NCBI RefSeq assembly: GCF_014695915.1
Contig: NZ_JACJPF010000087.1
Coordinates: 1-64,000, forward strand
Reading direction: 5' to 3'
Length of the DNA stretch: 64,000 bases
From: Trichocoleus sp. FACHB-40
GTDB taxonomy: Bacteria; Cyanobacteriota; Cyanobacteriia; Cyanobacteriales; FACHB-T130
Below, piece by piece: positions 38,340 through 64,000 of this stretch (within the stretch, counting starts at the first letter, position 1; each line of letters begins with the position of its first letter). Position numbers and translations under genes: made by a program. Below the pieces are notes generated by a model. It made no database searches. It worked only from the letters and a program-made list of their open reading frames with translations, and was not told where the DNA came from.

Positions 38340-41300
38340 TTAAAGGCAGTTTTGTCGAATAGGAACGATAATGATAAACTCTGTTCCTCTCCCTGGTGTG
38401 GACAGACACTCTATTTGACCGCCATGCTTGTCCACCACAATTTGATAACTGATAGACAAGCCTAGTCCTGTACCTTTCCCTACAGGTTTAGTCGTAAAGA
38501 AGGGGTCAAATATTCGCTGCTGTACTTCCGGCGGAATTCCTAACCCATTGTCGGCAATACGGATCGCTATTTGGTCGCCTTCTAAAACTTCGGTACAAAT
38601 CCGAATCTCCCGATTTTGAATTTCGGCTCGATTTTGGGGGAAATTAATTCTTCCCAAAACATCACCTGATTTTGAAGCAATTTTAGGGGAGATTGATGAG
38701 GGATTTGGGGGATGACTGGTTCTTCCTCCAACCTCCGGTTTTTCCCAAAACATCGCCTGATTTTGGATTGGAAATTCCCCATTGCTCATTTTCCAGTCCT
38801 CACCCACCATTTCCAAAGCATCAATCGCATTAGTAAGCAGATTCATAAATACCTGGTTTAATTGTCCAGCGTAGCAATACACAAGGGGCAAATCACCATA
38901 CTCTTTGATAATTTGAATCTCAGGCTGTCCGGGTTTTTCTTTCAGGCGACTTTGCAAAATAACCAAACTACTATCAATCCCAGAATGAATATCAACTGCC
39001 TTCATTTCGGCTTGATCTAGCCTGGAGAAATTTCGCAAAGATAGCACAATCTGATTAATGCGCTCGGCTCCCATCTCCATCGAGTTGATAATTTTTGGCA
39101 AATCTTCTTTCAGATATTCCAGCTCAATCTCCTCCACCTCGGAAACAATTTCAGGCACGGGATTGGGATAATGTTGCTGATACAATCCCAAGAGTTTGAG
39201 CAAGTCTTGAGCATAGCTATTTGCATGGCTGAGATTTCCGTAAATGAAGTTTACAGGATTGTTAATTTCGTGAGCTACTCCTGCTACCAGTTGCCCAAGA
39301 GCAGACATTTTTTCTGCTTGAATCAGTTGAGATTGAGTGCGTTGTAATTCCCGTAACGTAAGTTCCAACTGTTCCGCTTTCTCCCGTTCTCTCTCTTCAG
39401 ATTGTTGCAGTGCCTCCAAATTAGCCAGTTGAAGATGAATGTTAATTCGCGCCAATAGTTCATTTTTTGAAATAGGTTTAGTTAAATAATCATTAGCCCC
39501 TGAGTTGAATCCTTCTACTAAATCTGATACTTGATTTTTAGCGGTCAACATTAATATAGGCAGTTCTGATGGTGAAAACTGTTCGCGGATTTTTTGACAA
39601 ACTTCATAGCCTGTCATTCGCGGCATCATTACATCTAGTAATATCATGTCGGGCCTTAAGCCGTTCTCAATTATTGATAATGCTTCAATGCCGTTTGAGG
39701 CTTGGCTAATTGTGTAGTTTTGCTCGGAAAGGTAGTTAACTAAAACTTGTATATTGATTGGCTCATCATCTACTATTAATATTTTAAAGTTGCCTTCATT
39801 AGCCTTGATTTCTGTTAAATCTTGCTGGGGGGTATTGTCTTGAATATTAAGTTTTGAATTGGAGATTTCCGGTAACTCTTTAAATTTTGTGAGGGAGGGA
39901 GTTTTATGTAAGGATGTTGTTGGTATCTCTACATTTCGTGAAAGTGGCAGAGTAAAGCTAAAGCGGGAGCCTTTACCAACGGTGGACTCAACGCAAATTT
40001 TACTGCCGTGCAATTCTACCAGTTGTTTAGTGATGGCAAGACCAAGGCCAGTTCCTCCGTAAACTCTGGCGGTTGTGCCATCAGCTTGTTCAAAAGATTC
40101 AAAAATTCTGTCTAATGAATCTGCGGGGATACCAATGCCAGTATCAGACACTGAAATCTCTAAGCAAGGGGTAAGAGATTTTTGAGCTGAAAAGTTTAGA
40201 TTTAACTCTTCACTTTCTATGCTAGATTCTATTAACTTAGCCGACACTTCGACTACACCAGTATCTGTAAATTTAATCGCATTTCCAACCAAGTTGGAGA
40301 GTATCTGTTGCAAGCGATCTTCATCAGCATCAACGGGGGGAGTTAAGGAATCGATTGAGTTTCGCAGTTGCAAAGGTTTTGTGCCGATGAGAGGTTGGCT
40401 GAGGCTTAGCACGACGTTAGCGATCGCGTGCATTGCTACTGGCTTGATTTGCAGCGCTAAATTCCCGTGTTTCAGTTTGGCAAAATCGAGGATGTCGTTG
40501 ACTAAATTAGACAATCTTCTCCCACTCGATACCACCATTGCTAGATTGGAAATGGTTTTTTCAGGTAGTTTTCCAGTTGCACCATCAATCAAAGACTCGG
40601 CAATACCAATAATGCCATTAAGTGGGGTGCGGAGTTCATGAGAAGTGTTAGCTAAAAATTCGTCTTTAAGCTCTTCCATCCGCTTGCGATCGTTAATGTC
40701 AAAGAACGCACTGAGCATCGCTCGTTCGCCATTAAATGTAATTGGCTGAATAGATAGATTAATCCAAAACAGCGTTCCGTCTAGCTTCTTTGCCAGTAAT
40801 TCGTAGTTGTGAACGTAGCCATTCTGAGCAAGTATTTTTACAATTTTTTGTCGCTCGGTGGGGTAGTATTGAAAGTCGGGAGCCTTGCGACCAATTAACT
40901 CTTTAGTTGATACACCCAAACTGGAACTACAAACATCGTTTGCATAAAGAACTAAACCATCGGTTATGCGGGTGATGATTAACGGGATTGGAGTTGTTTC
41001 GGCAATAATCCGAAACCGTTCTTCGCTATCGCTTAACTGCGCTTCTGCTTGCTTGCGTTCGCTGATTTCTTGCTTGAGATCCGCATTTAATGCAGTCATC
41101 TCATCATATAATTTAGCATTTTCCAGAGAAATCGCGATTTGAGAAGACAAAATTTCTAAAACTTCCAGCCTTTTTGGAGTGAAGGCATTTGTCGTTAAAT
41201 TGTTTTCTAGATAAAGCAGACCGAGCAGTTGCGTTTGTTTAATAATCGGAGTACATAATATAGATTTAGGTTGATGTTGTAATACATAAATATCTGACTT

Positions 41301-44300
41301 AAATAAACCTTCGTTAACGGCATCGTTTAAAACCAAATTTTCTTTGGTTCTCTTGACATAATTAGCAATCGCGGTTGAAACTTTTTGGCTAGATTGTATG
41401 GGAGTATATTGCAGAACACTTATCTCACTTTGATCAACTGCTCCTTCAGCAGCAATAACTAAATTGCCAGATTCTTCTAAAATGAGAAAGCCTTTCTGCG
41501 CTCCTGCATTTTCTATGACAATTTTCATTAATTTTTCTAGCAACTTGCTCAGAACAATCTCACCAGCCAAGGCTTGAGAAGCTTTAACAATCGTTGTTAA
41601 ATCTAACGCTCCCGCTTCCCCGCTAGTAGAGGCTACACTGCTAGTTTTAGCTTCTTTGGTGTTTGTTATAGAAGTGGCAGAATAGAACTGGGAATATTTT
41701 TCTTCTAAAGCTTTTGCTTTAGCGCTCGCGCCCCATTTTAGATATCCATAACGTGTTTCTGTAAAGTAGGCTTTGGCAATCAAATCAAATCCTTTCGCCA
41801 AATAGAACTTCGCCGCTAATTCATTAGCAATAGCTTCATTTTGAATGTAGTCATTTTCTTGTGCTGATTTGATTGCCCTTTCATATAAATTCATAGCCTC
41901 TTGAGGTTTGTCAGTAATTCGAGCCAACTCAGCTGACATCAGTAAGTATTTATGAAGAAAATTTTGCGGACACGACTCAGCCCACTTTCTCATCGTTTCT
42001 GTATTAGCCAACATATTTTCCATTGCTGGCTCTTTCTCCGTATCCGACAAAGCCGGATAGAGATTTGCTTGAATTAAAGTGTAGTAAAAATAATGTTCTG
42101 GCACTAAAATTGATGCAAATACAGTTGGCACCAATTTTTCAGCTTCTCTTGCCATTACCACGGCATCGGCATAATTTTCAGATAGATAAAGTCTCTGGGA
42201 CTCAAAAATACAATAAGTAATCTGAATTCCGGCAAGCTTTTTTATTTCGTTTATATGCTTCTCGCGTTCAAAACTCTCATCCTCTATCGTCTCACCCTGT
42301 AATATACATATAATTTCTTGTGTCAACTTCAAAAAATCATAAAAAGCTCCAGATTTCTGCTTTAAGAATTCATTATATTTTTGATATTCTTGATATAAAC
42401 TATCTAAAGCGTCTCCTTTCATGAAAAGCTTTACTACTAAGTAAAAAACCAGATAAGTAGCCCATTGAAAATCGCCTACTTCAATTGCAGTCTCAAACCC
42501 ATACTTCAGATATTTATAATCAGTTTTTAAATGATTTTTCCAATGATTAATATAGTTACTAAATACTGAATAAAGCCGTGGCTTCAAAGCTAAGTTATTA
42601 AACTTATCGTTAAGCTTTAAAGCTAGAGAGCCAAATTCATAAGCAGTTTCAAATTCATCAATCCCTGCCAGTGCTAATCCATAAGACATATAGGCAAAAG
42701 ATGTTACATTTGAATTGCCATAGGTTAAAGATATATTTACGGTTTTTAAGATTACTGCATACGCTAAATCTTTATTTACAAAACGAGCAGGCATAATCGT
42801 GTTTGTGAGCAATTTTGTTAAAATGATTTGCTCTGGTTCAGTCATCTCCGGGGCGTTAATTAATTCTGTAATTTTTTTGTTTTCAATATTTAGTTTTAAA
42901 ATTTGGTTTTCCCGATCTATTAAACTTTTTAATTCTGTTTCATCATCGGGAATGTCAATGCCAAATAGTCTCAAACCTTCTTTGCTAATTTTAACAGCTT
43001 CTTGCGGCTTTACCAGCGCAGTTTTAATAATAACTTTACTAATATATACGTTAGCTTTTTCTATTTTTGACGTTGCTTTATTTAGAATTACTTCAAAAAA
43101 CTTCTCAGAATCTTCAATATTTCCATTCAGATATTCACAGTCGGCACGCTCCATGTGGAGAGATAGAGCCAGCTCATATTGGGTTTCCCAGCTATGTTCT
43201 ACTAGCAGCTCCATACCAGCAGTAATGTATTTCAAAGCTGGTTCAAATGCACTAGATAATTTTGCTTTAGTACCAGCAGTGAGATTTAATTTAGCTAAAA
43301 AATATTTTTCTTCTTGAGAAGCAATTAAGTTCTTACCCAGATTTAATTGATTAACAATATCAAAAATTTTGTCGTCTAACTCTGAAGCACTAGCATTTAT
43401 AATAATCAACTGTCCAACTTTGAGATGAACCTGTTGTTTATCTGCTTCTGGTATTAAAGAATAAACGGCTTGCTGTACACGATCGTGTAAAAATCTGTAG
43501 GAAACTACTATCTCCTGATTAGTATTAGTACCATCAGCATCATCTACATAAGATTGAATATATTTATAAGCATCACCTATTGGTAAAATTAGTCCTTCTT
43601 TTACCGCTTCTTCGAGAGTATCGGAGGTTTCTATCTGTGGCTTTTCATTGACAATAGAAAGTATTTTTAAATTAAACTCATTACCGATACAAGCTGCCAG
43701 CTTCATCACATTTTGTGTATTCGGGTCAAGTTTTTGAATTTTCTTAACCATTAATTCGACCACATTATCTGTGATCTGCATTGTCTGAATCTGCTCTAGA
43801 TTCCACTGCCAACAACTACTCTCTGAGCTAAAAGTTACTAAGTTTTCTTCATAGAGCGACTTTAAAAACTGGGTTAAGAAAAAGGGATTACCGTGAGTTT
43901 TATGAAATATTAATTCTGCTAAAAGTGGTGTTTTTTCTATTGGGCAATGAAGAGTATCAGCAACTAATTGATTGACATATTTTATAATTAAAGGTTCAAG
44001 GGCAATATTATTTATAACAGTTCCGTAAGCCTTGATTTCATTCAAAGCCAGCATCAAAGGATGAGTTGCATTGACTTCATTATCTCGATAAGCACCAATC
44101 ATTAATAGATATTGGCTATTCGGAGTAGTCATCAGTAGCTGAAGCAATTTCAAAGAAGCAGAATCAGTCCATTGTAAATCATCCAGAAATAGAACTAGCG
44201 GATGTTCTTTAGTGGTAAAGACACTAATAAATTTTTGAAAAACTAAGTTAAATCGATTCCGTGATTCTGCGGGTTCTAGTTCGGGAACAGGAGGCTGTTT

Positions 44301-45554
44301 GCCAATAATAAGTTCCACTTCGGGAATGACTTCAATGATTACCTGTCCGTTGGAGCTGAGAGCTGTTAAAAGTTTCCTTTTCCAGACAAATATCTGTTCC
44401 TCAGTTTCTGTTAAGAGCTGCCTCATTAATTTCTGGAAAGCTTGAATTAAAGAATCATAAGGAACGTTTCGCTTAAACTGGTCAAATTTGCCACTAATAA
44501 AGTAACCTCTTTGTCGCACGATTGGTTTATGAATTTCATTCACCAAAGCGGATTTACCAATACCAGAAAAACCGGAAACTAGCACAATTTCAGTTGTGCC
44601 TAAACTAACTCTTTCAAAAGCATTCATTAGCACCGCAATTTCAGCTTCCCGTCCGTAGAGTTTTTGGGAAACTTGAAATTTATCTGAAATATCATATTTA
44701 CTTAGTGAAAAATTTTCAATTCTTCCACTATTATTTAGCTGATTTAGACAACATTCCAGGTCAGCTTTGATTCCAAAAGCACTTTGATAGCGGTCTTCAG
44801 CAGTTTTAGATAATAGCTTCATTACCAGCGCTGATAGTGCTTGCGGAATGTCTTGATTCAGAGCATGGGGTATTTCTGGTTGTTTAGCAATGTGGCAGTG
44901 GATCAATTCCATCGGGTCGCTAGATTGGAAAGGTAACTGACCCGTCAGCATTTCATAAAAGGTGACACCTAAAGAATAAAAGTCTGTGCGGTAATCAATT
45001 GAGCGATTCATTCTCCCAGTTTGCTCTGGTGACATATAGGCAAGAGTGCCTTCGAGCAAATTGGGATTACTAATTGTTTGGTTCTCGACAGACAATAGGG
45101 ATGAAATGCTAAAGTCAGTAATTTTTACTAGACCAGTTTCAGGGTTAATGATAATATTTTGAGGTTTAATATCTTTGTGGATAATTTTATGTTTATGGAT
45201 TTGGCCAATCGTTTCTGAGAGTTGAATAGCTATTTGCAGGAAATCCAGTAATTCTATCCTCTGAGATGTAATATTATCTTTTAGGCTTTCTCCGCCAAAA
45301 TCTTGAAATATTAAAACCAAAAAATTTTTGTGCTTTTGTAATTTTATTGGTTTAACTATTCCTGGTAAATTCAGATTTTTTGTGATTTCATATTGATGTG
45401 TGAATTTGGCAACATCCGTTAAATCGGGATACTCTTTCCGAAGAAATTTAGCGATAATCGGTTGTCGATCGTGATCGCTATATCCCCGGTATACAACTGT
45501 TTTTAAACTTTCGTGAATTTTGATTAAATCTTTGTAGCCAGGAATGGTAAGCAT
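38340..45554 (-). CDS. Giant hybrid Ser/Thr kinase - AAA - GAF - PAS - histidine kinase - receiver - histidine kinase
   Basis: About 2404 residues. Domains in order: Ser/Thr protein kinase (1-280) with HKDIKPQN near 135 and DFS in place of DFG; AAA_16 ATPase with [10 protein letters not shown] near 335; a long helical TPR-like region (about 700-1250); GAF (about 1330-1470); PAS (about 1500-1620); HisKA with [11 protein letters not shown] near 1640 and its ATPase; receiver with VDDEP near 1925 and [11 protein letters not shown]; then a second histidine kinase with [10 protein letters not shown] near 2095. This order is typical of cyanobacterial multi-sensor multi-kinases. In the last ATPase domain, just after the N box, about 45 residues come from a repeat (38650-38790) that contains two copies of CCAAAACATC. 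The start is placed at [10 protein letters not shown]; an ATG at 45587 adds 11 residues. Confidence 0.92.
38650..38790. repeat. Repeat-derived insertion inside the giant kinase gene
   Basis: Two near-copies of CCAAAACATCGCCTGATTTT occur about 100 bases apart, with the stretch between them low in complexity. The insertion lies between the N and G1 boxes of the second histidine kinase. The frame is intact. Confidence 0.75.
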
Positions 45555-45627
45555 AATCTTAAATTTATAGAAACTTAAATTAATCAATATTTAGGTTAGA
45601 TGCAACCCCGTAGCTTTATCAAAGCAC

Positions 45628-53093: not shown

Positions 53094-53203
53094 AAGAGTT
53101 ATATAGTAGTCCTAAACGAGTTGTAAAATGTTTTTCATTTGTAGCGCAGGCATCTCCCTGCGATAGGGTCTCCCGCTTGTCCTACTTACCAGAAAAAATC
53201 GAT

Positions 53204-56200
53204 ATGTCTGAACAAGAAGTCTTCGTCTTTCCTACATCTTTTGCCCAACAGCGGTTGTGGTTCCTTGACCAGTTAATATCTGGCAATGCCATCTATAATG
53301 TACCGACAGTAATACGTTTAACAGGTTCACTGAATTTAGCAGCCTTAGAGCAGACATTTAGCGAAATCGTGCGTCGCCACGAAGCTTTACGCACAACATT
53401 TAAGGTGTTAGACGGGCAACCCGTGCAAGCGATCGCGCCCAACTTAAGCATACCTTTGTCCGTAGTAGACCTGCGACAGTTCCCAGAATGCGATCGCGAA
53501 CTCCAAGCACAGCAGTTGTTAGCAGCAGAATTCGAGCGTCCTTTCGATTTGTCCTCTGGCCCATTGTTGCGAATAATGCTGTTTCAGCTTTCCGAGACAG
53601 AGCATATTTTATTACTAAATATGCACCACATTATTTGTGATGATTGGTCTATCGGCGTACTAATTCGGGAATTGGGGACGCTATACACAGCTTTTACAAA
53701 CGTTACATACGTCTCTACACCCTTGCCAGAACTACCTCTTCAGTACCCCGACTTTGCCGAATGGCAACGCGAATGGTTGCAAGGAGAAGTGTTAGAAACC
53801 CAGTTAGCTTATTGGCGGCAACAATTAAACGGTATTCCTGTGCTAAATTTGCCCGTTGACCGACCGAAACCAGCTTTTGCAACTTATGGCGGAGCAACCC
53901 AAACTTTAGAGTTATCGAAAAAGCTAAGCGATGCTCTCCAGACGCTTTCCCAGCAAGAAGGTGCCACCTTATTTATGACTTTACTGGCAGCATTTCAAAC
54001 GTTGCTCTACCGCTACACTCATCAAGAAGATATTGCAGTGGGTTCGCCAATCGCTAACCGCAACCGCAGCGAAATCGAAAAATTAATTGGCTTTTTTGTC
54101 AATAGTTTAGTGCTACGCACCGATTTATCTGGAAACCCAATTTTTCGAGAAGTTTTAAACAGAGTACGGCAGGTAACGCTAGGCGCATACAGTCACCAAG
54201 ATTTGCCTTTTGAAAAGCTAGTTGAGGAACTGCATCCAGAGCGAAACTTAAATCGTCATCCGCTCTTTCAAGTAGTGTTTGGTTTCGAGAATGCGCCAAT
54301 GTCGGCGCTAGACTTGCCTGGTTTAATACCTAGTTTTATGGATATTGACTTTAAAACAACCCGCTTTGATTTGGAGTTACACCTGTGGAAGTGTTCGGAG
54401 GATTTCCGAAGTTTATGGGGCGGGAAATGGGAGGATTCGGAGGGGATCAGAGGTGTAGTAGTGTACAACACAGATTTATTTGATGAAGCCACCATTACCC
54501 GAATGCTGGGACATTTTAAAATGTTGCTGGAAGGCATTATTTATAATCCAGAAGAACGAATTTCAAATTTGCCGCTATTGAGCCAAGCTGAGCTACATAA
54601 ATTATTAATTGAATGTAATGAAACTGCGGCAGATTATCCTCATAGTAAATGTATATATCAGTTGTTTGAAAATCAAGTAGAGCAGAATCCTGATGCTATA
54701 GCAGTAATCTTTGAAGACACGCAACTCACATACAAAGAGCTAAATATACGCAGCAACCAACTAGCGCACCACTTACAAAAAATGGGGGTGGCTTCGGAAG
54801 TTTTAGTTGGTATCTGTGTAGAGCGTTCTATAGACATGATTGTGGGGTTGCTGGGTATCCTGAAAGCAGGGGGAGCTTATGTACCTTTAGATTCTAATTA
54901 TCCACGCGATCGCTTAAATTTCATGCTTGATGATTCTCAAGTTTCAGTATTGCTGACACAGGAGAAATTAGTTGATAATTTTGGCAACTTCCCCAACCCA
55001 GTTGTATACCTCGATAAGGATTGGCAAACCATTGCCCAAGAAAGCGAAGAAAATCCGCACAGCGACGTAACAAGCGACAGCTTAGCTTATGTAATTTACA
55101 CTTCTGGATCTACAGGTAAACCGAAGGGAGTTGCTGTTACTCATAAAGCTGTAAATCGCTTGGTATGCAACACAAATTATATAAAATTATCACCTAATGA
55201 TAAAATTGCCCAAGCTTCAAATACTTCTTTCGATGCAGCAACATTCGAGATTTGGGGAGCGTTACTTAACGGCGCTCAACTTGTGGGAATTAGTAGAGAT
55301 GTCACCCTTTCTCCCCACGAATTTGCCTTACAATTGAGGCAGAAAGGCATCAGCGTTTTGTTTTTGACTACAGCCTTATTCCAACAGATTGCTAGAGATG
55401 TTCCGCAAGCTTTCTCCTCCTTGCGCTACTTACTATTTGGAGGTGAGGCTGTTGATGCTCGGTGGGTTAAAAAGGTGCTTAAACAAGGAGCGCCTAAGCA
55501 GTTAATTCATGTATATGGGCCAACAGAAGGTACAACATTTTCTTCTTATTACTGTGTGCAGGACGTACCAGAATCAGCCACATCTATTCCCATCGGTCGC
55601 CCGATTGCGAACACACAAATTTATCTATTAGATGCCGATTTACAACCTGTACCTATTGGCATTGTTGGCGAATTATATATTGGTGGTGATGGTCTGGCGC
55701 GAGAATATACTAACCGCCCTGATATAACTGCTGAACGCTTCATTTATAATCCTTTTAATAATAAGTCAGAATCGCGGCTTTATAAAACGGGTGACTTAGC
55801 CCGTTATTTACCAGACTGCAACATTGAGTTTTTAGGTCGTATTGATAATCAGGTAAAAATTCGCGGCTTTCGCATTGAGTTGGGAGAAATTGAAGCCATA
55901 CTAAATCAGCATCCAGCAGTGAGGGAGACAGTAGTAATTATCCGAGAAGAAATACCTGGTGATAAACACTTGATAGCTTATATTGTTCCCGACCAGCAAC
56001 AGACACCAACTAGCATGATGCGGCAATTTCTCAAAGAAAAGTTACCAGAATACATGGTGCCTTCAGCGTATGTTGTACTAGAATCCCTACCACTGACACC
56101 AAATGGCAAAGTGGATCGCCGTGCCTTACCTGCGGTAGATACGCTCAATTTTGAGATGAAAGAAGATTATGTCGCACCACGCGATCGCGTTGAGGAAGTG

Positions 56201-56467
56201 CTAGTAGAAATTTGGGCTAAGGTTTTGGGGAAACAGCAGATAGGTGTTCGGGACAATTTCTTTGAATTGGGCGGTCATTCTCTACTAGCAACACAGTTAA
56301 TTTCCCGCATCCGCGACGCTTTCCAAATAGAGTTGTCTGTACGCAACTTGTTTGAATCTCCAACTGTAGCTAGTTTAGCTAGGCACATTGAAACAATGTG
56401 TTGGGCTGCAAAAGGTTTGGATAACACGAGTTCTACGGGAAATGAGCGAGAAGAGGTTGAATTTTAA
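53204..56467 (+). CDS. NRPS-1: condensation - adenylation - peptidyl carrier
   Basis: About 1087 residues. The condensation domain (about 1-440) starts with FAQQRLWFLDQL and has the active site HHIICDDWS near 141. The adenylation domain (about 480-985) shows YTSGSTGKPKG near 630, FDAATFEIWG, LFGGEAVD, VYGPTEGTTF and NGKVDRRALP. Reading the ten specificity positions by eye gives D-A-F-F-L-G-V-T-F-K, a branched aliphatic type (Ile/Val-like). The carrier domain has NFFELGGHSLLATQL with its pantetheine Ser near 1025. The protein ends in an acidic tail (NEREEVEF) and has no thioesterase. Translation is placed at ATG 53204; a TTG at 53177 extends the frame. A GTAGAGACG-type repeat trace encodes NVTYVS near residue 170. 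Confidence 0.93.
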   Translation: MSEQEVFVFPTSFAQQRLWFLDQLISGNAIYNVPTVIRLTGSLNLAALEQTFSEIVRRHEALRTTFKVLDGQPVQAIAPNLSIPLSVVDLRQFPECDRELQAQQLLAAEFERPFDLSSGPLLRIMLFQLSETEHILLLNMHHIICDDWSIGVLIRELGTLYTAFTNVTYVSTPLPELPLQYPDFAEWQREWLQGEVLETQLAYWRQQLNGIPVLNLPVDRPKPAFATYGGATQTLELSKKLSDALQTLSQQEGATLFMTLLAAFQTLLYRYTHQEDIAVGSPIANRNRSEIEKLIGFFVNSLVLRTDLSGNPIFREVLNRVRQVTLGAYSHQDLPFEKLVEELHPERNLNRHPLFQVVFGFENAPMSALDLPGLIPSFMDIDFKTTRFDLELHLWKCSEDFRSLWGGKWEDSEGIRGVVVYNTDLFDEATITRMLGHFKMLLEGIIYNPEERISNLPLLSQAELHKLLIECNETAADYPHSKCIYQLFENQVEQNPDAIAVIFEDTQLTYKELNIRSNQLAHHLQKMGVASEVLVGICVERSIDMIVGLLGILKAGGAYVPLDSNYPRDRLNFMLDDSQVSVLLTQEKLVDNFGNFPNPVVYLDKDWQTIAQESEENPHSDVTSDSLAYVIYTSGSTGKPKGVAVTHKAVNRLVCNTNYIKLSPNDKIAQASNTSFDAATFEIWGALLNGAQLVGISRDVTLSPHEFALQLRQKGISVLFLTTALFQQIARDVPQAFSSLRYLLFGGEAVDARWVKKVLKQGAPKQLIHVYGPTEGTTFSSYYCVQDVPESATSIPIGRPIANTQIYLLDADLQPVPIGIVGELYIGGDGLAREYTNRPDITAERFIYNPFNNKSESRLYKTGDLARYLPDCNIEFLGRIDNQVKIRGFRIELGEIEAILNQHPAVRETVVIIREEIPGDKHLIAYIVPDQQQTPTSMMRQFLKEKLPEYMVPSAYVVLESLPLTPNGKVDRRALPAVDTLNFEMKEDYVAPRDRVEEVLVEIWAKVLGKQQIGVRDNFFELGGHSLLATQLISRIRDAFQIELSVRNLFESPTVASLARHIETMCWAAKGLDNTSSTGNEREEVEF

Positions 56468-56792
56468 GTAATTCTACAATCTCATCTGCAAATATTCTAG
56501 GGTCAGCAAGTGCAAATAATCTAGCATCCGAATATAAGCTTTTAGTTGCCCATAATCTCCATCTATTGCGAAGCTAGTAGGTTGAGTGTAAGCGAAACCC
56601 AAGCACTGCCTTCCTCTGTTGGGTTTCGTGCCTCAACCCAACCTAATGAGTTAATTTTATAAATTATTTAGGATTGCTATAGTCCAGTTTTTAATAGGAC
56701 TTACGAATTGACAAAATAATTAAAATATGAATAATTGACGAAAGAATAGAGTGCTGGGCAGCATAATAAATAGTTAGCCAGTGGAGCGTCCA
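56468..56792. other. Intergenic region with a palindromic dispersed repeat
   Basis: Between NRPS-1 and the acetyltransferase gene. Besides the repeat listed separately (56578-56646), it holds TTTAGGATTGCTATAG near 56666, a relative of the end of the 64-base repeats at 12063 and 19287. No gene is evident. Confidence 0.6.
56578..56646. repeat. Palindromic TTGGGTTTCG-type dispersed repeat
   Basis: TAGGTTGAGTGTAAGCGAAA and, at the other end in inverse, TAGGTTGGGTTGAGGCACGA flank a short spacer, with CCCAA/TTGGG inside. Partial relatives occur near 47289, 48127 and 17082. Confidence 0.75.
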
Positions 56793-57266
56793 ATGAAAAT
56801 ACGATTGTTTCATGAGCAAGATGCTGTTCAAATAGCGCAGTTGTTCCACGAGACAGTGCGTGAAATTAACATTCGTGACTACTCAATTGATCAAGTCAAG
56901 GCATGGGCGCCAGAGAATATTCATTTTAGGAACTGGGCAAAGGTCTGTTCTAATCGATTCACTTACGTTGCTGATGATGAAGGTACGATCGCAGGTTTCG
57001 GCGAGTTAGATTTTAGCGGACACATAGACTGCTTTTACTGCCATAAAAATTATCAGGGAATGGGTATCGGGCGTAAGATTTATTCTGCAATTGAGGCCAA
57101 AGCTCATGAATTAGGAATTAATCGCTTGTACACCGAAGCAAGTATTACCGCAAAGCCATTTTTCTTGCACATGGGCTTCTCGATAGTTAGGGAACAACAG
57201 GTGGAACGTAGGGGAGAGATTTTTGTTAATTACGCAATGGAGAAGTTTATAAAAAATGCTGTCTAG
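56793..57266 (+). CDS. GNAT-family N-acetyltransferase
   Basis: A 157-residue acetyltransferase. The acetyl-CoA-binding motif A is YQGMGIGRKIYSAIEAKA near residue 92 (Q/RxxGxG/A), and motif B follows with LYTEASITAKPFFLHMGF. ATG 56793 is chosen because GGAG lies 7 bases upstream; a GTG at 56781 is in frame. It resembles YafP/ElaA-type small acetyltransferases whose substrates are amines. The position between two NRPS genes suggests possible tailoring or resistance, but a housekeeping role is equally possible. Confidence 0.85.
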   Translation: MKIRLFHEQDAVQIAQLFHETVREINIRDYSIDQVKAWAPENIHFRNWAKVCSNRFTYVADDEGTIAGFGELDFSGHIDCFYCHKNYQGMGIGRKIYSAIEAKAHELGINRLYTEASITAKPFFLHMGFSIVREQQVERRGEIFVNYAMEKFIKNAV

Positions 57267-57413
57267 CAAGTTGCTCAAGCGTTGCGTCAGGCAATGCTCA
57301 CCACGATGAAACAACATCCAAACCCCATAGGCTGGAAAGCTTTTACTTAATTGGCCAATCAGACTGAGCGTAACACTACATGAGTTACACGCCTGCGGGC
57401 TACCCACCCCAAA

Positions 57414-58196
57414 ATGCAGAAACAACAGCGTTTATTTCATCTGACCCTATTATTATGTCTCGTCGTGGTAGTATCGCTGGCTTTCAACGCTCTCCTGTTC
57501 CGCCAGGCGAGACACTACTACCTGCTACTGAACAAAACTAATCTAGATCCCTTGGGACTACGCGCCTTTAGTGCCGACTCTCTAAAAGATGGTGTTCCTG
57601 CCGCCTCTACAGCAACCGTGGTATTCTTTGGCGACTCGCGAGCCGAAATGTGGCCCGCTCCGGCAACGCTCAAGGGTTTTTCTTTTATCAATCGAGGCAT
57701 CAGCTCTCAGACTTCAGCCCAGATATTGGGACGCTTTGACAATCATGTTGTGCCGTTGCAGCCCAATATTATCATTGTGCAAGTTGGGATTAACGACTTG
57801 AAAACAATCCCGCTATTTCCTGAGCGAAAAGCTGCCATTATCACCAACTGCAAAGCTAATATTCAGCAGATTGTTGCACGTTCGGTAAATAGTGGTGCCA
57901 CCGTTATTTTGACAACCATTTTTCCTATTGGTTCAGTACCTCTGACCCGTCAACCTTTCTGGTCGCCAGATATCACCCAAGCGGTATCGGAAGTAAACGC
58001 TTACCTTTACTCGCTAAAAGCAAAGGATGTCTTGATTTTAGATGCTTACTCGCTCCTAGCAGAGAATGGTCAAGTGCAAAGCAACTACGTTCGTGATACT
58101 TTGCATCTCAATGAGAGGGGGTATAAGGTGCTAAATCAAGAGCTAACTCATGTGCTATCCACCTGGTTGACGGACAAAAGTCTCAAGAGGAACTAA
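57414..58196 (+). CDS. SGNH/GDSL-type hydrolase with N-terminal membrane anchor
   Basis: A 260-residue protein with an N-terminal hydrophobic segment (residues 10-28). The SGNH blocks are FFGDSRAEMW (nucleophile Ser75), NRGISSQT (Gly), VGINDLK (Asn, near 123) and DTLHLNERG (Asp and His, near 230). It is expected to be an extracytoplasmic esterase or lipase-like enzyme acting on acyl or acetyl esters. It follows the acetyltransferase gene by 147 bases. A link to the NRPS product is not shown. Confidence 0.88.
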   Translation: MQKQQRLFHLTLLLCLVVVVSLAFNALLFRQARHYYLLLNKTNLDPLGLRAFSADSLKDGVPAASTATVVFFGDSRAEMWPAPATLKGFSFINRGISSQTSAQILGRFDNHVVPLQPNIIIVQVGINDLKTIPLFPERKAAIITNCKANIQQIVARSVNSGATVILTTIFPIGSVPLTRQPFWSPDITQAVSEVNAYLYSLKAKDVLILDAYSLLAENGQVQSNYVRDTLHLNERGYKVLNQELTHVLSTWLTDKSLKRN

Positions 58197-58328
58197 TAAA
58201 TGTGCCTACAGCAAGTAAGGTTGCGCTCGCAAACCACAGGTAACTAAGCTAGTTGGGGTTGAGCCGAAATAAAACCAAATAAGCCAGTATTTATTGCTAC
58301 TCACACGCCAATTTTAGCGCCTGAGTTA

Positions 58329-59435
58329 TTAACAGTTAGCACAAAATGTACTGACAACTTCGGAAAAGAGCTGATTCTTCTCCATTAATACCATGTGTCC
58401 ACCCGGCTTAATGGTGACGAGTTCAGCTTGAGGCAATTCCGCTTTCATGCGATCGCTTGCAACAGGTTTAGTCGCTATATCGGAAGCGCCGCAAACGACC
58501 AACACTGGAACGTTAATCGTTGCCAGTGTCTTTGTTTCCTCGAAATTGAACATTGCCAGTGTGCCACGAGCAAGAACACCAGGCGAACCAAAGGCTGATA
58601 ATAGAGCTGCAAAATTGAGCTGACCGCGTGTTTCAGTACCCTTAAATCCAGACAGTTCTACGCTGATGTGCAGCAACCCATTAAGAAATGAGAGCCACGT
58701 CATTAGCCATAAGATAGGTGACAGCAGAATCGTGAGGTACAAAAGAGGTTCGAGTAGCGGCTTCTGCAATTTACGTACCAAACCGCTAAAAATACAAGTC
58801 TTTACCGGATTGGTGTAGGTGGTATCCACAAGGATTAAGCCAGCCACCCGCCGCCCCAAATGTTCTGGAAACAGCCGAGAGAATGTTAGGTTAATCATGC
58901 CGCCCATACTGTGACCCAGCAGGATAACAGGTTTATCCCCCGCTATGGCAACAACGGCTTCTAGGTCACGGGCATATTTTTCTATAGAGTAGTCGTTATT
59001 TTTCGGTCTAGTAGATTTTCCTAGTCCCGGTAAATCCCAAACAATGACTCGGAAGCGATCGCTTAATTGTCGCTTGGCATAGTACCATATCGTACTGTTA
59101 GGCCCCCAACCATGTGACAAGATAATCGGTTGACCATCTTCAGGGCCATAAAACTCTACTTGCAGGACGCTACCATCCGGTCGTTGTATGCGCTGCACGG
59201 TTCCAGTACGCATGATTTTAGGTTCCTCAGCACCTTTACGACGTAGCAGTGGCAAACTAATAAAACTACCGCCAAAAGACCATAGAACCAGCGCTATTCC
59301 AGCCACTAAGTAGGGGGTTCCCACAAGTTCCCGTTCGTACCACTCATAAAGAATGTAAATCCCCCCGCCAAGTATCCCAATGGATAACAGTTGTACCAGC
59401 CATAACAAAAGGAAAGTGGGGGGCATGAACACCAT
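58329..59435 (-). CDS. Alpha/beta hydrolase with two N-terminal membrane segments
   Basis: A 368-residue protein. Two hydrophobic segments (about 5-25 and 40-60) precede an alpha/beta-hydrolase domain. Its oxyanion region is ILSHGWGPNSTIWYY near 107, the nucleophile is in LLGHSMGGMINL near 178, the acid is in VVCGASDIATKP near 313 and the catalytic His is in KPGGHMVLMEKN near 345. It points against the NRPS genes and so belongs to its own transcript. Membrane-tethered lipase, esterase or haloperoxidase-like activity is possible. Confidence 0.87.
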   Translation of the reverse strand: MVFMPPTFLLLWLVQLLSIGILGGGIYILYEWYERELVGTPYLVAGIALVLWSFGGSFISLPLLRRKGAEEPKIMRTGTVQRIQRPDGSVLQVEFYGPEDGQPIILSHGWGPNSTIWYYAKRQLSDRFRVIVWDLPGLGKSTRPKNNDYSIEKYARDLEAVVAIAGDKPVILLGHSMGGMINLTFSRLFPEHLGRRVAGLILVDTTYTNPVKTCIFSGLVRKLQKPLLEPLLYLTILLSPILWLMTWLSFLNGLLHISVELSGFKGTETRGQLNFAALLSAFGSPGVLARGTLAMFNFEETKTLATINVPVLVVCGASDIATKPVASDRMKAELPQAELVTIKPGGHMVLMEKNQLFSEVVSTFCANC

Positions 59436-59561
59436 GAGCAGAAACCTTTAGGGTAGGATGTTGAGTGAGTTGTCTTCTAACGTCATACCGAGGTTAGACT
59501 ACAGCCGACTCAATAGCAAGTAAACTCCTCTAGCAGGTAATCTCCTAAAAGGGGTTTAATC

Positions 59562-62500
59562 TTGAAAATAGTTGAATTTTTATCTTATCTTCGTAGCTTA
59601 GATATTCAGGTTTTTGTCGATGAAGAACGCCTGCGCTGTAATGCCCCTGAAGGAAGCCTCACAGCAGAATTGCGTGCAGAGATTGCGGAACGCAAAGCTG
59701 AAATTCTCTCCTTTCTAAGGACAGCTAACGTTACCACAAACGCAACTCCTATAAGTCTTACACCCATTTCACGGGACAGAAATCTCTCCCTATCCTTTGC
59801 ACAACAGCGGCTGTGGTTTCTGGATCAATTAGTACCCAATAATGCTTTCTATAATGTTCCGGCAGCTGTGCGTCTGGTCGGTTCGCTAAATTTAGCGGCG
59901 TTGGAGGAGGCTTTTAACGAAATTGTGCGCCGTCACGAAGCTTTACGCACCACGTTTGTAACCGTGGAAGGGCAACCCGTACAAGCGATCGCATCCACTT
60001 TAACTGTACCTCTACCAGTAATAGATTTGCGTTCGCGAAGCGTCTCTGTTGGCGAAGCCGCCCTGAAAGGGCTAGGAGAATCGCAAAGCCTCTCCAAAGG
60101 AGAATTAGAAACCGAAGCGCGACGCATCACGACCCAAGAAGCTCAACGCCCTTTCGATTTGTCCAAAGACCCTTTTCTACGAGTAACGCTACTGCGGTTG
60201 GATGAGTCAGAATATGTGCTACTGCTGGTGCTGCACCACATTGTCTCCGATGGCTGGTCTATGGGGGTACTAATTCGCGAGTTAGCGGCACTCTACACAG
60301 CCTTTGCTTCTTGTAAAGACGATAAATTTTCCGTCTCTACACCTTTACCAGAACTACCCATCCAGTATGCAGACTTTGCCCACTGGCAACGGGAGTGGCT
60401 GCAAGGAGAAGTATTGGAAACACAACTTGCTTACTGGCGGCAGCAGTTGGACGGCATTTCTATCCTAAATTTGCCTACTGACAGACCTCGACCAGCAGTT
60501 CAAAGCTATCGGGGTGCAACGCAACTTTTGCAACTACCGAAAAGCCTAAGTAAGGCCTTAGAAGCCTTAAGCCAGCAAGAAGGCGTAACTTTATTTATGA
60601 CTTTACTTGCAGCATTTCAAACGTTGCTGTATCGCTACACCCAGCAAGAAGATATTGCCGTAGGTTCGCCAATTGCCAATCGCAACCGTAGTGAAATTGA
60701 AGGATTAATTGGTTTTTTTGTCAACAGTTTGGTGTTGCGTACCAACTTTGATGGAAACCCAACCTTTCGCTCACTTTTGAGTCAAGTGCGAGAAGTATCT
60801 CTGGGAGCGTATGCCCATCAAGATTTGCCTTTTGAAAAGTTGGTGGAGGAACTGCATCCAGAGCGCAACTTGAATCAAAATCCCCTGTTCCAGGTAGTGT
60901 TCGCATTACAGAATGCGCCAATGTCGGCGCTAGAACTACCAGATTTAACACTAAGCCCGTTGCAATTTGTCGATACAGAAACAACTCGGTTTAATTTAGA
61001 ATTCCACCTGTGGGAGCAAAAGGAAAATAATGGGTTAGGGGTAGATAGTTCAGAAGGAATTAGCGGATTTGTCGTATATAGTACCGATTTATTTGATGCA
61101 GTTACGATTAACCGGATGCTGGGGCATTTCCAAATATTGCTAGAGGGCATTGTTGCAAATCCAGAGCAACGAGTTTCCGAATTACCGATATTAAATGAAG
61201 CTGAACTCCACCAACTGTTGGTGGAGTGGAATAATACTCAGGTCAATTATCCCAAAGACTTGTTTATCCATCAGCTATTTGAAGCTCAGGTAGAGCAGAA
61301 CAAAGATGCGGTCGCGCTGGTATTTGAAGACAAACACCTCACCTATGAACAGTTAAATAACCGCAGCAACAAACTTGCGCGTTATCTACAAAAGTTGGGT
61401 GTTGGTGCGGAAATTCTAGTAGGACTTTGCGTAGAGCGATCGCTTGATATGATAATCGGGATGTTAGCCATCCTGAAAGCAGGCGGAGCCTACCTACCTT
61501 TAGATCCCAGCTACCCCTCTGAGCGTTTGAGTTTTATGCTTCAAGATGCTCAAGTACCAGTTATATTAACTCATGAACAGTATATCGAACGCCTTGTAAA
61601 AGATAGCTCACAAATAATATGTTTAGACAAGGATTGGGAAACTATTTCCCAACAAAGCGAAAATAATCCTAGCAGCAACGTTACCTCAGACAACCTTGCT
61701 TATGTCATCTATACCTCTGGCACTACAGGAAAGCCGAAAGGGGTTAAAATTGAACATCGTAACTTATTAAATCTCATCTTTTGGCATCAAAAAGCGTTTG
61801 CAGTTTCCCCGCTTGACCGCGTAACACAGGTTGGAGGAGTTGCTTTTGATGCTTGTGCGTGGGAAGTCTTACCTTATTTGAGTGCAGGATGTAGCATCTA
61901 TTTGATTGATGATGAAATAAGAATAGCGCCTGAAAAACTGAGAGACTTCTTAACATCGAAATCAATAACAATTAGCTTTTTACCTACACCTTTAGCTGAG
62001 AAAATTTTGTTATTAGATTGGTTTAATAACGCATCTTTACGAATATTACTGACAGGGGGAGACAAACTACATCAGTATCCTTTGGCTGAGTACCCTTTTC
62101 AGCTAGTTAATAATTATGGCCCCACAGAGAATACAGTTGTGACAACATCCGGTATTGTTCCTGTCACAGAGAAAGAAGCTCCCACCAACAGACCTTATAA
62201 AGGGGAGCCAGAAGGGATCGCAAATGTAGCAGCATCAGGAAATGCGATCGCGCCTACAATTGGTCGTCCTATTGCCAACACTCAAGTTTATGTTCTAGAT
62301 AGATATTTACAACCTGTACCCATCGGCGTTGCTGGTGAATTGCACATTGGTGGTGATGGACTAGCGCGAGGTTATTTAAACCGTCCCGATTTAACTGCTG
62401 AAAAATTCATTTCTAATCCTTTTAGCAACCAACTAGAAGCACGTCTTTATAAAACAGGCGATTTAGTTCGTTATCAACCAGATGGTAATATCGAATTTTT

Positions 62501-64000
62501 AGGTCGCCTCGACGAACAGGTGAAAATTCGCGGCTTCCGCATAGAGTTGGGAGAAATTGAAGCGGTATTGAGTCAGCATCCAGCAGTGCTGCAAAATGTT
62601 GTAATAACTCGTGAAGATTTACCAGGGGAAAAGCGTTTAGTAGCTTATGTAGCGCTAAATGCTGAATACAGCGAACAGAAGCAGGTGGAAATCCAATTGC
62701 AAAATGAGCAGGTTTCGCAATGGCAGATGCTCTACAACGAAAATTATAATCAACCTGCTGCTGGTTCAGATCCAACATTCAATATTGTCGGTTGGAATAG
62801 CAGTTATACTAATCAACCGATTCCAGCAGAACAGATGCGTGAATGGGTAGATAACCAAGTCGCGCATATTCTGGATTTGCAACCAAGTCGAGTGTTAGAA
62901 ATTGGGTGCGGAACAGGTTTATTGTTGTTTAGAATTGCGCCTCACTGCAATAAATATTGTGGGACAGACTTTTCCTCGGCTTCACTAAACTACATCCAGC
63001 AGCAATTGGCACAATTACCTCAAGTAACATTGCTTCAGAAGTTAGCGACTGACTTTGAGGGAGTGGAGTCAGAAGCCTTTGATATGGTGATTCTGAACTC
63101 GGTTGTGCAATATTTTCCCAGTATTGATTATCTGGTGCGCGTACTGGAGGGTGCAATAAATGCGATCGCTCCCGGTGGCTTCATCTTCATCGGCGATGTG
63201 CGTAGCCTCCCTCTGCTGCAAGCTTTCCACGCCTCAGTACAGCTTTATCAAGGCGAACCTTCTCTCACCCGCGAACAGTTGCAGCAACGGGTAGAAATGC
63301 AAATTTTCCAAGAAACTGAGTTAGTAATTGATCCAGCTTTCTTCACTGCATTAAAACAGCGATTTCCCCAGATTAGCGACGTACAAATTCAACTAATACG
63401 GGGTCGTTCTCACAATGAATTAACGCAGTTTCGTTATAACGCGATTCTGCATATTGGCGCTAAAATACGTTCTGCAAGAACCCCCCTCATTCCCCCCGCT
63501 TCGAGGGGAAGTAAGAATACTTCGGCTCCCTCCCTGTTGCGGGGAGAGCTGGGGAGGGGTTCCTCACTAGACTGGCACGAAAATAACTTAACCGTCTCCG
63601 CTGTACATCAGCTATTAGTTGATAACCAACCAGAACTCTTAAGCATTACCAACGTGCCTAATGCGCGGGTAATAGCAGCAGTTAAAACAGCAGAATGGCT
63701 ATCAGGCACAGCAGAATTTAAGACTGCGGGACAGATGCGCGAAGCATTGCAAAAACTCCAAGATTTAGGAGTTGATCCAGAGGATTTTTATAATTTAAAC
63801 GTCCCTTACAACGTTGAAATTAGCTGGGCAAATCCTGGTACTGACGGACACTACGATGTAGTGTTTGTAAGGAAAGAAATAGGCAAGAAAACTACTTTGC
63901 CACTCAGCGCTAAATTGCGATTGCTACAATCTTATGCGAATAATCCCCTACAAGCAAAAGCAGCCCGCAAGTTAATCCCTCAATTGCAGACTTATCTAAC
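59562..64000 (+). CDS. NRPS-2 (3' truncated): TubC docking - condensation - adenylation with embedded methyltransferase
   Basis: The frame stays open for 1479 codons to the window edge. The start is a TTG at 59562 with AAAGGGG upstream. Residues 1-52 (IVEFLSYLRSLDIQVFVDEE) are a TubC-type N-terminal docking domain. The condensation domain has HHIVSDGWS near 225. The adenylation domain starts about 560, with YTSGTTGKPKG near 716, FDACAWEV, LLTGGDKL and NNYGPTENTVV; the code reads D-A-W-F-L-G-N-V-V, the known leucine code as far as visible. After the A8 region (VKIRGFRIELGEIEA) a SAM methyltransferase is inserted (VLEIGCGTGLLLF near 1112, then VILNSVVQYFPS), as in N-methylating modules. Several dispersed repeats are embedded in frame. 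The carrier domain must lie beyond the window. Confidence 0.92.
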   Translation, partial: MKIVEFLSYLRSLDIQVFVDEERLRCNAPEGSLTAELRAEIAERKAEILSFLRTANVTTNATPISLTPISRDRNLSLSFAQQRLWFLDQLVPNNAFYNVPAAVRLVGSLNLAALEEAFNEIVRRHEALRTTFVTVEGQPVQAIASTLTVPLPVIDLRSRSVSVGEAALKGLGESQSLSKGELETEARRITTQEAQRPFDLSKDPFLRVTLLRLDESEYVLLLVLHHIVSDGWSMGVLIRELAALYTAFASCKDDKFSVSTPLPELPIQYADFAHWQREWLQGEVLETQLAYWRQQLDGISILNLPTDRPRPAVQSYRGATQLLQLPKSLSKALEALSQQEGVTLFMTLLAAFQTLLYRYTQQEDIAVGSPIANRNRSEIEGLIGFFVNSLVLRTNFDGNPTFRSLLSQVREVSLGAYAHQDLPFEKLVEELHPERNLNQNPLFQVVFALQNAPMSALELPDLTLSPLQFVDTETTRFNLEFHLWEQKENNGLGVDSSEGISGFVVYSTDLFDAVTINRMLGHFQILLEGIVANPEQRVSELPILNEAELHQLLVEWNNTQVNYPKDLFIHQLFEAQVEQNKDAVALVFEDKHLTYEQLNNRSNKLARYLQKLGVGAEILVGLCVERSLDMIIGMLAILKAGGAYLPLDPSYPSERLSFMLQDAQVPVILTHEQYIERLVKDSSQIICLDKDWETISQQSENNPSSNVTSDNLAYVIYTSGTTGKPKGVKIEHRNLLNLIFWHQKAFAVSPLDRVTQVGGVAFDACAWEVLPYLSAGCSIYLIDDEIRIAPEKLRDFLTSKSITISFLPTPLAEKILLLDWFNNASLRILLTGGDKLHQYPLAEYPFQLVNNYGPTENTVVTTSGIVPVTEKEAPTNRPYKGEPEGIANVAASGNAIAPTIGRPIANTQVYVLDRYLQPVPIGVAGELHIGGDGLARGYLNRPDLTAEKFISNPFSNQLEARLYKTGDLVRYQPDGNIEFLGRLDEQVKIRGFRIELGEIEAVLSQHPAVLQNVVITREDLPGEKRLVAYVALNAEYSEQKQVEIQLQNEQVSQWQMLYNENYNQPAAGSDPTFNIVGWNSSYTNQPIPAEQMREWVDNQVAHILDLQPSRVLEIGCGTGLLLFRIAPHCNKYCGTDFSSASLNYIQQQLAQLPQVTLLQKLATDFEGVESEAFDMVILNSVVQYFPSIDYLVRVLEGAINAIAPGGFIFIGDVRSLPLLQAFHASVQLYQGEPSLTREQLQQRVEMQIFQETELVIDPAFFTALKQRFPQISDVQIQLIRGRSHNELTQFRYNAILHIGAKIRSARTPLIPPASRGSKNTSAPSLLRGELGRGSSLDWHENNLTVSAVHQLLVDNQPELLSITNVPNARVIAAVKTAEWLSGTAEFKTAGQMREALQKLQDLGVDPEDFYNLNVPYNVEISWANPGTDGHYDVVFVRKEIGKKTTLPLSAKLRLLQSYANNPLQAKAARKLIPQLQTYL
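60028..60110. repeat. Dispersed repeat embedded in the NRPS-2 condensation domain
   Basis: GCGTTCGCGAAGCGTCTCTG opens a stretch encoding RSRSVSVGEAALKGLGES. The homologous place in NRPS-1 has only a short different loop. GTTCGCGAAGC is a known-looking cyanobacterial dispersed repeat core, palindromic in TTCGCGAA. Confidence 0.75.
60309..60342. repeat. GTAGAGACG-type palindromic repeat in NRPS-2
   Basis: GTAAAGACG and CGTCTCTAC surround an AT-rich loop. It encodes the loop between the ALYTAF and TPLPELP segments of the condensation domain, the same place where NRPS-1 has a decayed version (about 53698-53722). Confidence 0.75.
63475..63570. repeat. Dispersed repeat embedded after the NRPS-2 methyltransferase
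   Basis: Blocks such as CCCCCCTCATTCCCCCCGCT and, in inverse tendency, GGGGAGAGCTGGGGAGGGGT give a fold-back stretch of about 90 bases. It encodes RTPLIPPASRGSKN followed by LLRGELGRGSS. The frame continues normally on both sides. Confidence 0.8.

Follow-up and report, generated by a model that had tools for sequence, protein, structure and literature searches.

Matched docking ends probably link two peptide synthetases of Trichocoleus sp. FACHB-40 across three intervening genes

Docking ends of NRPS-1 and NRPS-2

A stretch of 64,000 nt from Trichocoleus sp. FACHB-40 (positions 1 to 64,000 of NZ_JACJPF010000087.1, i.e. part of contig C113 in our numbering; genome size 6.38 Mb), referred to below as the window, carries two nonribosomal peptide synthetase (NRPS) genes, NRPS-1 and NRPS-2, which are separated by three other genes. 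Docking between the two proteins is likely (probability about 0.88), with the acidic C-terminal tail of NRPS-1 being the predicted partner of the TubC-type docking domain (TubC_N) at the N-terminus of NRPS-2. Direct transfer from NRPS-1 to NRPS-2 had been proposed in a sequence-only reading of the window; it is supported here because both ends are kept despite changing spacing, covary at a contact known from the Kj12 system and have no competitor in the genome, but the proposal was incomplete, as the line probably continues to a third synthetase, NRPS-3. What the sequences show is that the two ends are conserved and covary; binding and chain transfer are inferred from this, and the substrates and the product are likewise predictions.

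NRPS-1 (53177..56467, plus strand) encodes a protein of 1096 aa if read from a TTG start, an ATG at 53204 being possible too, with condensation (C), adenylation (A) and peptidyl carrier protein (PCP) domains. Since the PCP occupies residues 1008–1071 and the chain ends at 1096, only a short tail with a hydrophobic last residue follows the carrier, as is usual for the docking class. The protein ends in ...LDNTSSTGNEREEVEF, and its last eight residues, read from the open reading frame (ORF), are the acidic NEREEVEF already named in the sequence-only reading (56441..56464, plus strand, followed by the stop codon at 56465–56467). No thioesterase is found in NRPS-1. A strict tail pattern, [DE][DE]x[DE][LIVF] at the chain end, was compared over the closed ORFs (120 aa or longer) of 13 stretches and occurred in 11/11 NRPS-1 orthologs vs 0/163 other ORFs; in the stretches from the genome itself it was unique to NRPS-1 among 60 such ORFs. 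The occurrence of the tail at NRPS-1 is more than chance.

NRPS-2 (1635 aa; 59562..64000 in the window and on to contig position 64469, plus strand) has the organization TubC_N-C-A-NMT-PCP, where NMT stands for N-methyltransferase. The docking domain proposed earlier is borne out by a match to PF18563 (E 7e-20, residues 3–53; 59568..59720, plus strand), with the condensation domain (residues 75–553) next to it, the arrangement expected of the class. Its AlphaFold model (pLDDT 90.6) shows an H-E-E-H-H order, i.e. alpha-beta-beta-alpha-alpha, and has as top Protein Data Bank match the beta-hairpin docking domain of AerJ (8aqq; rmsd 0.8, TM 0.89/0.86). By sequence and fold together, the solved structures that match it best belong to the beta-hairpin docking domains of AerJ, EpoB, Bamb_5915, TubC and Kj12. 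No thioesterase and no epimerization (E) domain are found in NRPS-2, the single Condensation-family match being the C domain.

The sequence-only reading had also called for a check for competing tails beyond the window. A TubC_N profile search of the genome returned exactly one domain, that of NRPS-2. A carrier search gave 15 PF00550 matches, which we grouped into 12 proteins: NRPS-1, NRPS-2, an NRPS on contig C44, seven proteins encoded by an NRPS cluster of contig C63, a stand-alone acyl carrier protein (C90) and a protein on C100. None of these 12 beyond NRPS-1 has an acidic tail with a hydrophobic end, polyketide synthases being covered via PF00550 only, with no ketosynthase search. A single TubC_N and a single matching tail in the genome therefore support the NRPS-1/NRPS-2 pairing.

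Conservation in relatives

Ten other genomes contain an NRPS-2 ortholog with an upstream NRPS-1 ortholog; Nostoc sp. 106C, Nostoc sp. NMS8 and Microcoleus sp. FACHB-61 are named relatives in which this pairing is found. Both the NRPS-1 tail and TubC_N are kept in 10/10 of these genomes, the tails reading NEREEVEF (four genomes), NEREEIEF (two), AQREEAEF, NTREEVEF, NQREDIEF and NEREDVEF. The gap between the two genes ranges from a 4-bp overlap of the ORFs with no gene in between (G002 and G006), over one intervening gene (G017, G035 and G024), to about 8 kb with several ORFs (G036); the spacing in the sister genome G040 (gap 3101) is about that of the window, and in most relatives opposed or unrelated genes lie in between. 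Docking ends that stay constant while the intervening genes vary are the pattern expected from direct docking.

Covariation of tail and docking domain

The structural reference is the Kj12B/Kj12C complex of a rhabdopeptide synthetase (6EWV), for which we draw on parts of PMC6195595, as we do on parts of the other papers cited. In that complex the C-terminal five residues of Kj12B pair with beta2 of the docking domain as a third strand, and the very last of them is buried at helix 2. Glu(-2) is salt-bridged to R24, and Tyr27 is packed against Gly(-3), where a larger residue weakens binding. In our alignment Kj12 R24 and Tyr27 correspond to R23 and C26 of NRPS-2 (strand beta2 residues RLRC; 59628..59639, plus strand, codons computed). 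The charged beta2 residue facing tail position -2 is present as R23 against E(-2), the position being E in 37 of the 39 domains with R23 in the reduced set defined below. The Tyr-on-Gly(-3) contact is absent, its place being taken by V(-3) and C26; this contact is a trait of the Kj12 pair and not of the whole beta-hairpin class, and the covarying variant without Tyr/Gly makes up the majority of the TubC_N pairs collected.

We collected 176 TubC_N sites and dropped 48 without a recognized upstream carrier (the flank was short, other genes intervened or the pattern missed the carrier; several have acidic upstream ends), which gave 124 distinct pairs after merging duplicates. Covariation was counted on the 114 of 124 pairs with an acidic tail and hydrophobic end, and on a reduced set of 91 with <80% docking-domain identity; the 10 non-acidic pairs (e.g. 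KTNG, DAAA) were left out of the count and their inclusion would add exceptions. Of all combinations of a tail with a docking-domain position, tail -3 and residue 26 were linked most strongly (reduced set, z 23.8). Gly(-3) accompanies an aromatic residue 26 in 27/31 domains vs 0/83 with a non-aromatic residue among all 114, and in 24/27 vs 0/64 in the reduced set, the four aromatic exceptions being L074, L080, L201 and L218. In the best docking-domain tree built without column 26, 13 independent pairs differ at residue 26 if branch support is ignored, and the tail follows concordantly in 11, in the opposite direction in 0 and without difference in 2.

These pairs fall into a Gly/aromatic and a branched/Cys sub-code, NRPS-1/NRPS-2 (V, C26) belonging to the latter. 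Four loci with two TubC junctions each (L103, L112, L115 and L122) hold one junction of each sub-code, while of seven more loci with two or more junctions six hold a single sub-code and L135 both. In the reduced set Phe(-1) coincides with Cys26 in 18/20 cases, and R(-6) shows a weaker additional link with D14 (36/44). Interfaces are told apart by tail position -3 against one beta2 residue, with the last tail residue possibly an additional discriminator. The acidic tail as a recognition rule, as first put forward, is therefore too coarse, even though such a tail is present.

By its sequence the NRPS-1/NRPS-2 pair is a contact-swapped member of the class of short linear motifs and beta-hairpin domains (SLiM/beta-hairpin) already predicted for cyanobacteria in PMC6195595, where micropeptin and cyanopeptolin docking pairs are named as predicted junctions of the same class. 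The pair shares with Kj12B/Kj12C the alpha-beta-beta-alpha-alpha domain before the C domain, the short tail after the PCP, E(-2) with a beta2 Arg and the hydrophobic last residue. It differs in having Cys26/Val(-3) and a last Phe instead of Tyr27/Gly(-3) and Ile, and in that a genome has a single tail and a single domain. With TubC, AerJ, EpoB and Bamb_5915 (2JUG, 8AQQ, 5T7Z and 6CGO) it shares the Pfam domain and fold, but the partners differ, AerJ being a halogenase and EpoB a cyclization protein, and the N-terminal docking domain of TubC is reported as a dimer. Parts of PMC12184294, PMC8251938 and PMC13324335 were also drawn on. The parts of PMC6195595 used here do not mention this line of three proteins with its unlinked third subunit.

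NRPS-3 and a second tail/leader pair

NRPS-2 ends in ISRENRRMKLSSLNKENQQP, its tail being SRENRRMKLSSL, and a tail of this type is kept in 9/10 relatives, G029 with its early-ending frame being the exception. The frame of G029 NRPS-2 (L054) has only 1360 aa and an end rich in proline and glycine, which may reflect a frameshift or an assembly error. NRPS-3, a C-A-PCP protein with a C-terminal thioesterase, lies downstream in seven relatives and directly after NRPS-2 in four further loci (L101, L257, L261 and L266); the thioesterase motif was found in 12/12 NRPS-3 and in no NRPS-1 or NRPS-2. Considering that NRPS-2 lacks a thioesterase and carries a second docking tail, the line is predicted to go on to NRPS-3, here on another contig. 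At the site itself only a 5' fragment of ~310 bp with in-frame stops remains (contig C113 near 70219–70528, i.e. ~15220–15529 of L002), present in both the source genome and its sister G040, and an intact copy with leader and thioesterase lies at C44:9771-13910. In the tree this copy and a second copy of G002 (on C55) form a group with support 100, next to which stand the copies that G003 and G004 have within the cluster. NRPS-3 and NRPS-2 are also on separate contigs in G023, G029 and G017.

The adenylation codes of all three proteins are the same or almost the same in all orthologs: DAFFLGVTF in NRPS-1 (DAFFLG[V/L/F]TF across orthologs), DAWFLGNVV in NRPS-2 (DAWFLGNV[V/I]) and DAFTIAA[V/I]W in NRPS-3. 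We take them to suggest Ile/Val, Leu (N-methylated) and a Phe-like residue, respectively.

NRPS-3 and NRPS-1 open with EEVFVFPASFAQQRLW instead of a docking domain. The NRPS-3 N-terminus is EETEVFVFPASF, a short leader without TubC_N, the one such domain of the genome being on NRPS-2, and the NRPS-1 leader of the same kind is SEQEVFVFPTSFAQQRLWF (53204..53275, plus strand). We surveyed 116 adjacent pairs of carrier and C-domain genes, with tails typed by regular expression; the loci were picked by their downstream part, so that the tail distribution is unselected. Upstream of leaders of the EVFVFP kind (EEVFVFPASF type), an SR...KLSSL tail was found in 22/23 and an acidic tail in 0/23, the remaining pair (L032, tail RRVSLSSV) being of the same kind by eye. 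The rows are not all independent, as L284/L286/L292, L289/L290 and L295/L296 are close relatives and four are NRPS-2/NRPS-3 orthologs. Upstream of TubC_N (n=79) the tail was acidic in 70, of another kind in 8 and a pattern artefact in 1 (L104, tail NNREEIEL), and upstream of other leaders (n=14) it was acidic in 2, of SR type in 2 (L106 and L110, both facing AEFVFPASF) and of another kind in 10. In the leader survey of 20 loci, a KLSSL tail directly upstream was not found for L287, L294, L297 and L299–L302, where the nearest upstream frame is not carrier-like or, in L297, the leader is absent.

The pair also occurs in the genome's own C63 cluster. There, a 481-aa protein (L041, 100854–102299) consists of little beyond a condensation domain and follows a KLSSL-tailed protein, its own start being an EVFVFP leader. 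KLSSL-like tails with EVFVFP-like leaders were also seen in L148 and L150, loci titled Chloroflexi and Calditrichales.

With a basic tail and an acidic leader, the two may pair as strands, the PCP-C linker then being divided between two proteins; an AlphaFold prediction for the C domain of NRPS-1 is too poor (pLDDT 41.8) for the leader structure to be read. The review PMC9113145 distinguishes COM, PAX and beta-hairpin docking, and the KLSSL/leader pair fits none of these as described in the parts used. The NRPS-2/NRPS-3 junction resembles COM (helix-hand) docking in having a short N-terminal stretch of the C domain as acceptor, but COM joins E to C with a helical donor, whereas the donor here is a basic KLSSL tail after the PCP. 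No paper on the pair was found in the literature outside subscription journals.

Neighbouring genes

As described in the sequence-only reading, the genes between NRPS-1 and NRPS-2 encode a GNAT acetyltransferase (56781..57266, plus strand), a GDSL/SGNH hydrolase (57414..58196, plus strand) and an alpha/beta hydrolase opposed to both NRPS genes (58329..59435, minus strand). Among the 10 relatives the acetyltransferase stands beside NRPS-1 only in G017, and the GDSL/SGNH hydrolase is at the matching place in 0/10. The alpha/beta hydrolase lies directly upstream of NRPS-2 in G003, G004 and G036 and one gene away in G023, a recurrence by which it may belong to the pathway. Neither hydrolase is favoured as releasing enzyme, as NRPS-3 already has a thioesterase.

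A family 1 glycosidase gene starts 5 bp past NRPS-2 (contig C113 64475–65851; L002 9476–10852), with ~97% identity in G003 and G004, and 79% and a more distant position in G002. Further away, the window encodes a very large sensor protein (38340–45587, minus strand), a single chain of 2415 aa with Ser/Thr kinase, AAA ATPase, GAF, PAS, histidine kinase and response regulator domains.

Discussion

In the mechanism that we propose, NRPS-1, NRPS-2 and NRPS-3 would be successive subunits of a single three-protein assembly line. The NRPS-1 end REEVEF would extend the beta-hairpin of the NRPS-2 docking domain by a third strand, with E(-2) pairing with R23, V(-3) lying on C26 and F(-1) reaching into the helix-2 pocket. 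The aminoacyl chain carried by the NRPS-1 PCP would then arrive at the NRPS-2 condensation domain. NRPS-2, with its predicted N-methyl-leucine, would pass the chain via its tail to NRPS-3, whose N-terminus would be a different kind of acceptor and which would release the product.

Several points weigh against this account. Ten of the 124 TubC-paired tails lie outside the acidic pattern, and well-supported branches leave only 1 independent pair for the covariation, so that shared ancestry may still play a part. TubC-type tails of rhabdopeptide synthetases bind several partners, and in FR-901375 biosynthesis the docking tail is dispensable. In addition, the C domain of 11/11 NRPS-1 orthologs has HHxxxDD (HHIICDD in the window; 53624..53644, plus strand, codons computed from residue numbers) instead of the HHxxxDG found in 11/11 NRPS-2 and 12/12 NRPS-3. 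The DD variant occurs in 19/271 C motifs of the loci, 18 of those 19 with an NRPS-1-like leader. NRPS-1 may begin the assembly line with an altered or idle C domain.

Taking both junctions together, it is tempting to speculate, at somewhat below even odds, that two codes which exclude each other coexist in cyanobacterial NRPS lines, i.e. acidic tail/TubC_N with its two sub-codes and an undescribed pair of basic SR...R.KLSSL tail after the PCP and EEVFVFPASF leader before the C domain, which together would let a line with a relocated third gene assemble and may let NRPS-2 feed NRPS-3 or NRPS-1. Since NRPS-1 and NRPS-3 have the same EEVFVFP leader, the NRPS-2 tail could feed either, and a partly iterative line can be envisaged in which NRPS-1 and NRPS-2 cycle and NRPS-3 ends the chain, giving an (Ile/Val-NMeLeu)n-Phe-like peptide family as in the rhabdopeptides, whose own system iterates through promiscuous docking. 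The leader is kept in 11/11 NRPS-1 orthologs though no upstream carrier gene is seen beside them, and a basic KLSSL-like tail precedes each of the 23 leader-bearing proteins that have a carrier next to them upstream (one by eye), both of which speak for iteration. We nevertheless consider it unlikely, as the HHxxxDD motif may mean no condensation by NRPS-1, and no NRPS-2 is directly followed by NRPS-1 among the adjacent pairs surveyed.

Less probable still is that the docking ends are ancestral baggage, the intervening genes having broken the operon, NRPS-3 having disappeared from its place and the line being in decay in this species. The degraded NRPS-3 fragment, shared with G040, and the opposed gene between NRPS-1 and NRPS-2 would fit such decay, but both NRPS-1 and NRPS-2 are undamaged, C44 carries an intact NRPS-3 complete with its leader and thioesterase, and opposed or unrelated intervening genes are found in most relatives too. 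That the acidic tail is simply a common ending of cyanobacterial NRPSs, paired with TubC_N by coincidence or promiscuously, we regard as the most remote of these explanations: acidic tails are indeed frequent before TubC_N genes in general, as the survey found, and a single tail can serve several docking domains, but only 2 of the 37 adjacent pairs without TubC_N have an acidic tail (24 are of KLSSL type), the strict tail is absent from the 163 other ORFs, and the genome holds no other partner. Docking of NRPS-1 to NRPS-2 within a three-protein line therefore remains our preferred reading.

Docking ends set the order of NRPS subunits, and a rule by which one tail residue and one docking-strand residue change together offers a specific code with which that order could be predicted and re-wired. 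As the terminal synthetase is unlinked in the source genome, gene order cannot give specificity there, which makes the system a natural test. The covariation, the second tail/leader pair and the unlinked NRPS-3 add to its interest, and if the KLSSL tail binds the leader, the two would represent another class of connector.

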